Assembly (NCBI RefSeq): GCF_003202235.1
Contig: NZ_MASU01000002.1
Span: forward strand, 248,001-312,000
From: Prauserella flavalba
GTDB taxonomy: Bacteria > Actinomycetota > Actinomycetes > Mycobacteriales > Pseudonocardiaceae
DNA: 64,000 nucleotides
Reading direction: 5' to 3'
The notes beneath the pieces are model-generated. The model saw only the letters and a list, made by a program, of their open reading frames with translations, was not told the DNA's origin and did not search any database. Positions within the stretch are counted from its first letter, which is position 1. The number at the start of each line of letters is the position of its first letter. A program made the position numbers and the translations under genes. Positions 43,397-49,300 of this stretch are shown piece after piece.

Positions 43397-46300
43397 ATGT
43401 CGGGTGTCCCGCTCACCAGCGCCCAGTCCGGAATCTGGCTCGCCCAGCAGATCGCACCGGACGATCCGGTCTACAACATCGCCTGGTACCTGGAGATTCG
43501 CGGCGAGGTGGACCTCAGCCGGCTCTCCTCCTCGGTGGCTCAGGCGATGGCCGAGGCCGAGAGCGTGCACGTGCGCTTCGCCGACGTCGGGGGAACGCCC
43601 CGGCAACTATCCGCACCGGTGGACCCGGCGCCGTCGGTGGTCGACTTCCGCGATGAGGTCGATCCGGTCGCCGCGGCGACCGAGTGGATGCGCCGCGAGC
43701 GCCGGGCCGTCACCGATCTCGAGAACGGCCCGGTGTTCGCCCACGCGCTGCTGCTGCTCGGCGAGCGGGTCTGGTGGTACCAGCGCTACCACCACCTCGT
43801 GATGGACGCCTACGGTTGCCTGCTCGTCACGCAGCGGGCCGGTGACCTCTACGCCGGTGCCGAGGGGAACCGGTTCGGCCCGCTGTCGGCACTCGCCGAC
43901 GCCGATGCCGCGTATCGCGGTTCCGATCGGTACACAGTGGACCGTTCCTTCTGGCACGAGCGGCTCGCCGACCGGCCGGAGCCCGCGCGCCTGCTGGACC
44001 GCGCGCCCGGCGCCGAGGTGCGGCGCCGTACGGTCGAGCTGTCCCGGAAACGCACCGATGCCCTTCGTGAGCTGGGTGTCCGGTGTGGACAGCGAATGTC
44101 CAGGGTCGCGCTCGCGGCCGTCGCCGCCTACACCCACCGCGCCACCGGGGCGTCCGACGTCGTGCTCGGCGTGCCGGTCCCGGCGCGGCCGGAGCCGCAG
44201 ACGCGCGTCGTGCCCGGCATGGCGTCGAACGTGCTGCCGCTGCGGCTCACCGTACGGCCGTGGACCACGCCGTCGGGGCTGATCGCCGCCGTGGACGAGG
44301 GCATCGCCGCGCTCACGGCACACGGCCGCTACCGCGGTGAGGACCTCGCCCGCGAGCTGGGCTTCGCCGACGGGCTCGCGCAGCTCATCGGCCCCACCGC
44401 CAACTTCATCGGCTTCAGCAGGGACCTGAGCTTCGCCGGTGCCGCCGCCGACTTCCGCGACCTCGCGCTCGGCCCAGTCACCGACCTCTCCATCACCTGC
44501 TGCGAGCGCTGGGCCGACTACGGCCTGCTGATCGAGCTGGACGGCGCGTGCGACGACGCCACGCTCGCCGAGCACGAACGCCGCTTCCTCGCCGTGCTCG
44601 ACGCGATGGTCGAGGCGCCGCGGCGCCCGCTCGGCACGATCGAGCTGCTGCCCCCGGCGGAACGCACCCGGCTGCTGGAGGACCTCGGCGCCGACGAGTG
44701 CGAGGTCGACGAACTGACCTGGCCCGACGCCTTCGAACGGCAGGTGCGGCGCTCGCCGGACGCGATCGCGGTGGTGTGCGAGGAGGAACGGCTCACCTAC
44801 GCCGAGCTGAACGCCGCGGCCAACCGGCTCGCCCGCTCGCTGCGGGAGCAGGGCGTGGGCGCGGAGGACGTCGTCGGCGTCGCGCTGCCGCGCTCGGCGG
44901 ATCTGGTGGTCGCGCTGCTCGGGGTGCTCAAGGCGGGCGCGGCGTACCTGCCGCTGGACGCCGACCACCCGCAGGAGCGGCTCGACTACATGGTCGCCGA
45001 CGCCGGCGCGAAGCTCGTCCTGTCCACTGTGGACCACGCTGAGCTGGCCGGGTACGACGACACCGACCTCGGCCTGCCGATCTCGCTGCACCAGGCCGCC
45101 TACGTGATCTACACGTCCGGTTCGACGGGCAGGCCCAAGGGCGTGGTCGTGTCCCACGAGGGCGTCGGCAGCCTCGTCGAGACCGCGATCGCGCGCCTGG
45201 GTGTGGACGCCACGAGCCGGGTCGCGCAGTTCGCCTCCGTGGGCTTCGACGTCGCGGTGTGGGACCTCACGATGTCGCTGTGCGTCGGCGGGCGGAGCAT
45301 CGTGGTGCCCACCGAGCGGCGCGTCGCGGGCCCCGAGCTCACGGAGTACCTGACGGCGCAAGGCGCGACGCACATGATCCTCCCGCCGTCGCTGGTCGCC
45401 GCCCTGCCCGCGGAATGCGAGCTGCCCGAGGGCGGCGTGCTCGTGGTGGGCACCGAGACCGTGCCGCCGGAGCTGATCACGCGCTGGGCCAAGCGGATGC
45501 GCGTGGTCGCCGCGTACGGCCTCACCGAGGCGACCGTCAACTCCACGCTGTGGCAGGCCGAGCAGGACTGGCTCGGCGCGGTGCCGATCGGGGTCCCGGA
45601 CCCGAACACCAGGGCCTATGTGCTCGACTCGGCGCTGCGGCCCGTCGGCGTCGGCGTGATCGGTGAGCTGTACGTCGGCGGCCGGGGCCTCGCCCGCGGC
45701 TACCGGGGCAGGCACGGGCTGACCGCGGAGCGGTTCGTGGCCGACCCGTTCGGCCCGCCGGGCGCCCGCATGTACCGCACCGGTGACCGGGTGCGGTGGA
45801 GGGTGGACAACTCGGACGCGGAGCGTCTCCGCTTGGGCGGTGGGGGGAGACGGGCGGGCCGCAATCTCGACTTCCTGGGCCGCTCGGACAACCAGGTCAA
45901 GATCCGCGGATACCGCATCGAACCCGGCGAGGTCGAGTCCGCGCTGCTGGCCCATCCCGAGGTGGCGCAGGCGGCCGTCGTCGCGCGGGAGGACCACCGC
46001 GGGGTGCGGCGCCTTGTCGGCTACGTCGTCGGCGACGCGGAGCCCGAGGCTGCGAAGGCGTTCGTCGCGGAGAGCCTGCCCGAGTACCTGGTGCCCACGG
46101 TGGTGCTCCGCCTCGACGAGCTGCCCTTGACGCCCAACGGCAAGGTCGACCGGGCCGCGCTGCCCGCGCCGGACTGGACGGGCCTCGCTGGCGGCGCCGC
46201 GCCCACGACGCCGAGGGAACGCACACTCGCCGCGCTGTTCGCGGAGATCCTCGACCTGCCGAGTGTCGGCGTGCACGACAGCTTCTTCGAGCTGGGCGGC

Positions 46301-49300
46301 GACTCGATCGTCGCGATCCAGCTCGTCGGCAGGGCCCGCAAGGCCGGTCTGGCGTTGACGCCCCGCGACGTGTTCGCGCACCGCACCGTTGCCGCGCTCG
46401 CCGAGGTCGCGGGCACCCCCTCGGCGTCCGCGGAAGTGGAGCTGGACGACGAGGCCCTGCCGGTGTCGCCGTTGCAGAGCGGCTTCTACTTCCACTCGCG
46501 CTTCGACGAGACCGACTCCTACGTGGTGCAGGAGGTGCTGGAGCTCGCCGAGGGCGTCGACCCCTCGGTGCTGCGGGCACGGTTGCAGCGGCTGCTCGAC
46601 CGGCATCCACTGCTGCGCGCCGGGTTTCACCAGCTGCCCGACGGACGGGTCGTGCAGCGGATTCCCGAGCACGTTGAGCTCCCGTGGCGGGAGGCCCCGG
46701 AACTGGAGGCGGCGCTGGATGCGGATCGCGCCGAGGGCTTCGACCTCGCCGAGCCGCCGTTGCTCCGTGCGACCCTCGTGGGCGGTTCGCGACTGGTGCT
46801 CACGCTGCACCACATCGTCGCCGACGGCTGGTCGGTGTCGGTGCTGCTGAGTGAGCTGGCCACCGACGACCTTCCGCCCGCACCCGACCACCGGCCCTAC
46901 CTCGCGTGGCTGGCGAGCCGCGACCACGACGCGGCGCTGGCCGCCTGGCGATCCGCACTGTCCGATGTGGAGCCGACCCGGCTCGTGGAGCACGCGGGCG
47001 AGGAACCCGGCAGCGTCGTCGTCGACGTTCCCGAGGACCTCACGACCGCGCTGACCGAGACCGCGCGCGCCAGGGGGCTGACCTTGAGCACGCTGGTGCA
47101 CGGCGCGTGGGGCCTGCTGCTGAGCGGGCTGACCGGCCGGTCCGACGTGGTGTTCGGCAGCACCGTCTCCGGCCGCGGCCTCGATCTCGAGGGCATCGAG
47201 TCGGCGGTGGGCCTGTTCATCAACACCGTGCCCGCGCGGCTGCGGCTGCGTGGCGGCGACTCGCTCGGCACGGCGCTGGAGCGCTGGCAGCACGAGCAGG
47301 CCGCGCTGCTCGACCACCAGCACGTCGCACTCGCCGACCTCCAGCGCGGCACCGGCGAACTGTTCGACACGCTCGTGGTGGTGGAGAACCAGCCCGTGCA
47401 CACCGAACCGGGGCTCTTCACCGGCGCCGAGGTCCGCGACGCCGTGCACTACCCGCTCGCGCTGATCGCGCACCCCGGGCAGCGGCTGCGGCTGGAGCTC
47501 AAGCACCGCATCGGCGAGGCAGGCGCACGGGACATCGCCGACCGCTACCTCGGCGTGCTCACCGCGCTCACCGAGCCCGACCGGCGGGTCGCCGACCTGG
47601 ACCTGCGCACCGAGGCGGAACGCGCGCGCACCGACGACACCGGGCACCCGGTGCCCGAGGGCACACTGACCTCGTTGTTCGCGGACCAGGTGGCCCGCAC
47701 GCCCGACGCGACGGCCGTGGTGTTCGAGGACACGCGACTGTCCTATGCGGAGCTGAACTCCCGCGCCGAGGCGCTCGCGCGCAGGCTCCGCGCCAGGGGA
47801 GCGGGGCCGGAAGCGCTCGTGGCCGTGGCCGTACCCCGCTCGGCCGAGCTGATGGTCGCGCTGCTGGGCGTACTCAAGTCCGGCGCCGCGTACCTGCCGG
47901 TGGACCTCGACTACCCGGCCGAGCGCATCGCCTTCATGCTCGCCGACTCCGGCGCGCGGCTCGCCGTAACCCTGCCGGGCACGGAGCTGCCGGGCGAGGT
48001 CGAACGGGTCGTGCTCGGCGAGGACGAGACCGTCGCCGACACGCCCGTGGTCGCCGCGAAGCCCGACCAGCCCGCGTACCTGATCTACACGTCCGGCTCC
48101 ACCGGGCGGCCCAAGGGCGTGGTGGTGACCCATCGCGCGATCGTCAACCGGCTCTCGTGGATGCAGGGCCACTACGGGCTCGCCGCCGACGACCGCGTGC
48201 TGCAGAAGACGCCGTCGAGCTTCGACGTGTCGGTGTGGGAGTTCTTCTGGCCGCTGCTGGAGGGCGCGGCCGTGGTACTGGCCCGCCCGGACGGTCACCG
48301 CGACCCGGCCTACCTCGCCTCGCTGATCGAGAAGGAGCGCATCACCACGTTGCACTTCGTGCCGTCGATGCTCGCCGCGTTCCTGCAGGTGGTGAAGGAC
48401 GCCGGGTGGGCCGCGACCCTGCGCAGGGTGTTCTCCAGCGGGGAGGCGCTGCCCGTCGAGTCGGCGACGCGCTGGCGGGTGCTGACCGGAGTGCCGCTGC
48501 ACAACCTCTACGGACCCACCGAGGCCGCCGTGGACGTGACGTGGTTCCCGTTCGAGGGCGAGGCCGACGGTGTCTCGGTGCCGATCGGGTGGCCGGTGTG
48601 GAACACGCGGCTGCACGTGCTCGACGAGTTCCTGCGTCCCGTGCCCGACGGCGTGCCCGGCGAGCTGTACCTCGCGGGCGTGCAGCTCGCGCGCGGCTAC
48701 CACGACCGGCCGGGGCTCACGGCGACGCGGTTCGTGGCGAACCCGTATGGCCTGGAAGAGAAAACCGCGGCGCGGAGCGCCTCCGTGGGGGGCGGTGGTC
48801 GGGCGACGGGTGGGCGCCTTTATCGCACCGGCGACCTGGTCCGACGTCGGCGCGCCGACGGGGCGATCGAGTACCTCGGGCGCACCGACCGGCAGGTGAA
48901 GATCCGCGGCAATCGCGTGGAGCTTGGCGAGATCGAGTCCGCGCTCTCGCGGCTGCCCGGCGTCGCGCGGGCCGCGGTGATCGCGCGCGACGGCGCGCTC
49001 GTCGGCTATGTCGTGCCCGCGGGGGAGCCCGCCGTCGAGGCGTGGCGCGAGGGGCTCGAGGCGGAACTGCCCGCGAGCATGGTGCCGAGCGCGCTCGTGG
49101 TGCTCGACGATCTGCCGCTGACGCCGAGCGGCAAGCTGGACCAGAACGCCCTGCCCGCGCCGGACGTGGTGACTGTGTCCTCCCTGCCGTCGCGGACGCC
49201 CCGCAACGAGCGGGAACGGCTGGTGTGCGACGTGGTGGCCTCGGTGCTCGGCCTGCCGGAGGTGGGCGTCGACGACGACTTCTTCGTGCTCGGCGGCGAC

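Follow-up and report, generated by a model that had tools for sequence, protein, structure and literature searches.

Why should two adenylation domains of a single nonribosomal peptide synthetase (NRPS) gene each carry a short run of additional residues whose DNA also occurs between genes? The question is raised by a stretch of 64,000 nucleotides from Prauserella flavalba (contig NZ_MASU01000002.1, positions 248,001 to 312,000; hereafter the window), for which an earlier note had proposed that about 17 extra residues near motif A7 of the first and second adenylation domains (A1 and A2) arose by the in-frame insertion of a dispersed repeat. We consider it highly probable (about 87%) that a short, mobile, non-autonomous repeat gave rise to both inserts, and that its copies have survived in-frame in tolerant loops and are translated.

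Four adenylation domains were recognised in the gene by Pfam (Table 1). Compared with its relatives, the additional DNA amounts to a net 51–57 nt, which gives the 17 codons announced for A1 (whose exact ends are uncertain by about one codon) but 19 for A2, and the two segments do occupy different loops on the two sides of A7. The gene was set against eight NRPS orthologues (genomes G001, G002, G003, G012, G013, G015, G022, and G067), which came from a search of 37 genomes and from one genome added later. The A1 insert is missing from all eight, including the closest (G002, taken to be Prauserella endophytica, of the same genus; 93.7% protein identity), and the A2 insert from seven, the exception being G067, of another GTDB genus and 79% identical, in which similar residues fill the same A2 loop. 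Insertion, as claimed in the note, is thus supported by orthologues that lack the inserts taken together with the many copies in the genome. The conserved motifs flanking both inserts are intact. Two alignments with a solved adenylation domain, that of linear gramicidin synthase, place the A1 insert in the brief turn that leads from RTGDR into the NI-EFLGR strand, and alignment to solved domains would make surface loops of both A1 and A2 inserts.

The repeat has a 24-base core, GGGCGGTGGGGGGAGACGGGCGGG, which occurs exactly at 38104–38127 (minus strand) between genes and at 45835–45858 (plus strand) in A1. Positions 38103–38145 and 45817–45859 are 91% complementary across 43 nt, and the A2 stretch 48761–48823 aligns to this same repeat with two additional single bases in the tail, which bears out the match of both domains to an intergenic repeat at about 38096–38150. 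At up to three mismatches, the core gave a mean of 0 matches in 100 shuffles of the window and 45 matches on both strands of the 8.09-Mb genome that holds it, where the reversed control gave none; the A1 core is identical to that of two other genomic copies. Trained on 30 copies that included A1 and A2, a covariance model returned 91 matches in the genome at E ≤ 1 and 83 at E < 1e-3, some of them neighbouring units of tandem arrays, and the repeat is therefore dispersed, as had been said. Its matches at A1 (45803–45862) and at A2 (48757–48818, past the end of the net insert) have whole-genome E values of 6.5e-12 and 3.7e-10, both being copies on which the model was trained. At E ≤ 1e-4, there are 80 copies in this genome, 93 in G002, and four each in G001 and G003.

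The unit, some 51–57 nt long, consists of a hairpin (GRCGC-NNN-GCGYC, with a 5-bp stem and a 3-nt loop in most of the 30 copies), then TCCG, and finally a G-rich tail that ends approximately in GACGGGYGGGC. An alignment of 116 copies drawn from several genera shows 98.4% of 557 stem cells paired and 59 cells changed on both sides; it was fitted to the model, and kinship among the copies inflates such covariation counts. None of 500 shuffles matched the pairing and none the double-changed cells, and 5 of 500 matched the number of pairs changed on both sides. The same trend appears in the unfitted set of 30 copies (99.3% paired, eight double changes). No Rfam family matched above its gathering score in the window and six loci.

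Table 1. Coordinates of the NRPS gene, its inserts, and related intergenic repeats in the window
Feature	Position	Strand	Remarks
NRPS gene	43397-56887	+	4496 aa; Pfam: 5 condensation, 4 AMP-binding, 4 AMP-binding_C, and 4 carrier stretches
A1 insert	45809-45862	+	net 51 nt, 17 codons, aa 806-822; between motifs A7 (YRTGD) and A8
A2 insert	48752-48808	+	net 57 nt relative to G002, 19 codons, aa 1786-1804; loop directly before A7
A3 insert, second repeat type	51140-51164	+	inverted repeat TGCAGTGAAGGTGGCCTTCACTGCA, 25 bp, 11-bp arms, 3-nt centre
Intergenic composite	38080-38186		palindrome arm, core (minus strand, 38100-38159), palindrome arm
Palindrome pair without core (composite minus its middle)	22987-23039		present in G002; not seen in G001, G022

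Other genes, several of them housekeeping genes, have received the repeat in the same manner. The coding analyses took 86 of the 91 model matches, the five weakest (E > 0.02) being left out, and of these six are internal to genes, A1 and A2 included, and one is N-terminal. The remaining internal cores lie in genes whose families were named by Pfam, for a KdpD-like sensor kinase, an Fpg-like DNA glycosylase, a NuoM-like proton-antiporter subunit, and an ABC-transporter ATPase; all six internal copies are in the sense orientation, keep the frame, and contain no stop. The cases of A1, A2, and the NuoM- and ABC-like genes were flagged by an automatic scan, and the others were found on reading the 33 copies without full palindromic arms (described below). 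The KdpD- and NuoM-like inserts are absent from G002, and those of the Fpg- and ABC-like genes are common to G002 and this genome but lacking in both G001 and G022. G012 has a copy in the corresponding loop of its ABC orthologue, read there in a different frame, which suggests that it arrived independently. Among the 86 copies, of which only the 33 arm-lacking ones were read by eye, we recognised no disruption of a single gene by an out-of-frame copy; the two same-strand, different-frame cases that a scan returned (L077 and L080) were both read as two neighbouring genes. Four other genomes, with 90 loci examined among the 129 matches listed, yielded six candidate in-frame copies, three in sense (L216, L220, and L282) and three in antisense (L104, L247, and L275); the one compared with orthologues was L220, in the NRPS gene of G012. 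A strict orientation rule for internal copies was dropped on account of the antisense candidates, which belong to other genera. The N-terminal copy lies in a topoisomerase I-like (TopA) gene. At L300 and L301, in two genomes that belong to the class but not to the family, the core appears to stand directly behind the start codon of a gene and may extend the N terminus.

Recurrence extends to the very loops of the NRPS. In the A7–A8 turn, the core is found in A1 of P. flavalba, A3 of G012, and A4 of G067, that is, in three GTDB genera and in the same frame, and in the loop before A7 it is found in A2 of P. flavalba and A2 of G067. A search of 297 genomes of the family with the A1 segment, at most 21 candidates being scored per genome, gave matches at E ≤ 1e-14 in these three genomes only. 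The finding of the same residues in distant genera, which the earlier note had named as evidence against its proposal, is partly the case for the A2 loop of G067, but the DNA there is again the repeat, as a diverged copy 10 edits away from A2 of P. flavalba. Copies L080 and L081 of this genome and L246 of G022 are four edits each from A2 of P. flavalba, in a comparison of 146 rows that held no other copies from G067; parallel insertion into this loop in the two genomes would fit better than inheritance, though it is not proven. The filling of the same loops in several genera, once in a different frame, would favour repeated insertion more generally. Under strict filters, the model matches 50 of 297 genomes and 12 of 46 genera in the family at E ≤ 1e-6, and 18 of 394 genomes and 7 of 138 genera in the class at E ≤ 1e-7, this genome counted.

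The course of events that we picture is one in which the repeat spreads at the DNA level, chiefly into intergenic palindromes and gene edges and at times into genes, where selection would leave mainly the in-frame copies that sit in tolerant loops. The survivors would be translated as segments rich in Ala/Arg/Ser/Gly or Glu/Arg/Leu/Gly, and the copies in the A7–A8 turn of A1 and in the loop before A7 of A2 would, most simply, have entered after the split from G002. The repeat family, its absence from orthologues, the kept frame, and the return of the repeat in further genes and genera are directly observed. Translation is what we infer from the kept frame and the absence of stops, and it is likewise by inference that we suppose the enzyme to have retained its activity and the repeat to be moved by an enzyme. 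On the sequences at hand, a mobile repeat has probably become extra protein loops.

Several observations weigh against this interpretation. The coding scans require open frames and fair codon scores and missed the KdpD- and Fpg-like cases, so they could also miss disruptions. Unrelated extra residues stand at the insert sites of the KdpD-like gene in G001 and of the NuoM-like gene in G001 and G003, and the TopA case is weak because the N terminus of this protein is variable and G003 has a similar-looking segment. In the inserts common to G002, several changes alter amino acids (two of four in the Fpg-like gene), which suggests that the inserted peptides are tolerated and not selected for a conserved function. 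A search for PF01797, the Y1 transposase family of REP-associated tyrosine transposases (RAYT), found no match in this genome or in seven of eight other genomes searched, G008 being positive, and matches in 5 of 14 control genomes. A consistent target duplication was not seen in the alignments of the NRPS and other genes; the KdpD-like site permits a 3-bp CGA repeat, and none is clear at the other sites.

Mobility driven by a RAYT was rejected, there being no PF01797 gene in this genome. Carriage by phages or plasmids was also set aside: one exact 26-base pattern was unmatched in viral contigs and one 60-base copy had no match in plasmids or phages, searches that diverged copies could escape.

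Three rival explanations have to be weighed against the survival of a mobile repeat in tolerant loops. That the extra residues are ordinary variation in loop length, and the intergenic similarity a coincidence of GC-rich DNA, would accord with the loop before A7, whose length varies by a few residues among the orthologues, and with the unrelated residues found at some insert sites in orthologues of other genes; given the E values of the A1 and A2 matches (training copies both), the exact identity of the A1 core to two other copies, and the lack of matches in the shuffles and the reversed control, we attach practically no weight to it. It is improbable, to a lesser degree, that the repeat is a structured RNA signal, in which a hairpin and a possible G-quadruplex serve control at the mRNA level, e.g., by ribosome pausing, or that it is skipped by the ribosome, the peptide being incidental. 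The covarying stem would suit such a signal, as would the motif of four G runs present in 56 of the 86 copies (a motif count only) and the many arm-less copies located at gene edges. Skipping, however, does not require the frame that all six internal copies keep, and the three antisense candidates inside genes of other genera mean that an RNA role tied to one strand cannot be general.

More deserving of attention, although we still regard it as unlikely, is the idea that a founding insertion took place once and was then exchanged between adenylation domains by gene conversion or horizontal recombination. A1 of P. flavalba, A3 of G012, and A4 of G067 share the turn and the frame across three genera, all start with GGACGCG, and A1 is three edits from the copy in G012 and four from that in G067; yet the nearest other copies are also four edits from A1, a difference too small to be decisive. 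The flanks of A1 and A2 are moreover similar to those of G002, including the codons CTT TAT at A2, and the two own-genome copies at four edits are nearer to A2 of P. flavalba than is the A2 copy of G067 at 10, G067's other copies standing outside the comparison. Beyond the survival of a mobile repeat in tolerant loops lies a wider proposition, which we hold only tentatively and think somewhat doubtful, that this is an undescribed family of mini-repeats across the actinomycete class, site-selective, re-entering the same loops, and giving rise to novel stretches of protein in parallel. Pairing may then occur between GACGG of the element itself and GAYGG in the target, a motif that was noticed post hoc in five of eight empty sites, as against about 10–12% of 30-nt windows in three NRPS genes, Asp-Gly turns being common in loops. 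If the proposition is true, the loops hit repeatedly in different genera would be the A7–A8 turn, the loop before A7, and the ABC-transporter loop.

The repeat is often embedded in a second one, a palindrome that reads GCAGTGAAGGCCACCTTCACTGC or keeps that centre in variant form, and that flanks the core as arms: 53 of the 86 copies have two arms, six have one, and 27 have none. The inner 17 bases of this palindrome occur at 321 genomic sites at ≤1 mismatch, with none for the reversed control, and the outer palindromes of the composites are also found alone. The left part of the composite in the window is found at the orthologous place in G002, where the compared stretch ends. At one intergenic locus (L067 vs L124), P. 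endophytica has a palindrome pair without the core that is present in this genome, a difference that may be either gain or loss of the core. The outer palindromes of the intergenic composite, of the pair without core, and of L003, L016, and L027 have the common centre AAGGCCACCTT, and their arms differ yet stay complementary (GCAGTG.. or CCCCC..). A near match to the palindrome at 25157–25171 was rejected, as it aligns with ordinary conserved sequence in four relatives. Besides the two inserts originally reported, both of which were confirmed, a third in-frame insert, in A3, belongs to another repeat than that in A1 and A2, is an inverted repeat, and reads CSEGGLHCS; at this site, other palindrome pairs stand in G002 and G001 and a single palindrome in G022, and no palindrome of such kind was found in G003, G012, G013, G015, and G067.

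In this genome, as in Amycolatopsis palatopharyngis and Streptomonospora alba, copies also form tandem arrays whose period approximates the unit length. Such arrays of the core were seen at L017, L079, L086, L093, L126, and L135, and the array at L017 does not hold the same number of copies in P. endophytica as it does here. At L007 (1501–1560; C13:341050), the core lies upstream of a gene in a position that is kept in records of Saccharomonospora sp. CUA-673, P. isguenensis, and P. aidingensis, and some copies are therefore old.

Among known systems, miniature inverted-repeat transposable elements (MITEs) are small, non-autonomous, and dispersed, and lie in and near genes, as the present repeat does, but no terminal inverted repeats were seen at the ends of its core and no consistent target duplication was seen. 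The enterobacterial elements RU-1, RU-2, and RU-3 (PMC2759123) are also small non-autonomous repeats with open frames, located inside annotated genes, but they are MITE-like and 103–168 bp long, against about 51–57 nt here. According to Di Nocera et al. (2013; PMC3733652), Rickettsia palindromic elements (RPEs) are short dispersed repeats found in-frame inside ORFs likely to encode functional proteins and also between genes, and intragenic repetitive extragenic palindromic sequences (REPs) form in-frame repeats in proteins of several species. Our repeat appears to work like the RPEs, being short and dispersed, lying between genes and in-frame in A1, A2, and the KdpD-, NuoM-, Fpg-, and ABC-like genes, and absent there from orthologues; it differs in being a GC-rich unit of a 5-bp hairpin and a G-rich tail, the likeness meant here being one of behaviour. 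With the REPs of the GTAG and CGTC types, as that text presents them, it shares short stem-loops that include G-U pairs, copies lying within known genes, and some copies inserted in other palindromes; in one case, recB, the REPs of two species occupy roughly the same position (PMC3733652). Unlike GTAG REPs, it has no GTAG beside the stem in the 30-copy consensus (the tandem locus L017 alone has GTAGAGC) and no Y1 transposase gene was found in this genome; unlike CGTC REPs, described there with an 8–9 bp stem, a 4–5 nt loop, and a CCA-like tail, it has a stem of 5 bp, a loop of 3 nt, and a tail rich in G. Actinobacteria are not among the phyla named there, and the string 'actinobact' occurs 0 times in the main text. 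In searches of the open-licence literature, we found no description of this repeat, of such behaviour in actinomycetes, or of NRPS genes from that group carrying inserts of the kind.

Protein-coding mobile repeats would thereby be extended to a free-living actinomycete lineage. Close relatives supply the corresponding empty sites, so that what a repeat-made loop does to an enzyme is directly testable; as identical loops are hit in several genera, one may also ask whether it is selection or the choice of target that decides where protein segments are gained. NRPS adenylation domains are engineering targets, and natural insertions of 17–19 residues at two defined loops would mark positions permissive to insertion, provided that the enzymes are active.

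The neighbours of the NRPS gene (39864–40805, 40974–43378, and 59766–63187) resemble a hydroxamate siderophore cluster, with genes like those for an N-monooxygenase, an iron-siderophore binding protein, a formyltransferase, and two ABC exporters, all best matches below the curated cut-offs of their families. Antisense to the NRPS gene runs an open frame of 4143 codons (43607–56038), which is expected at high GC and was not counted as a gene.

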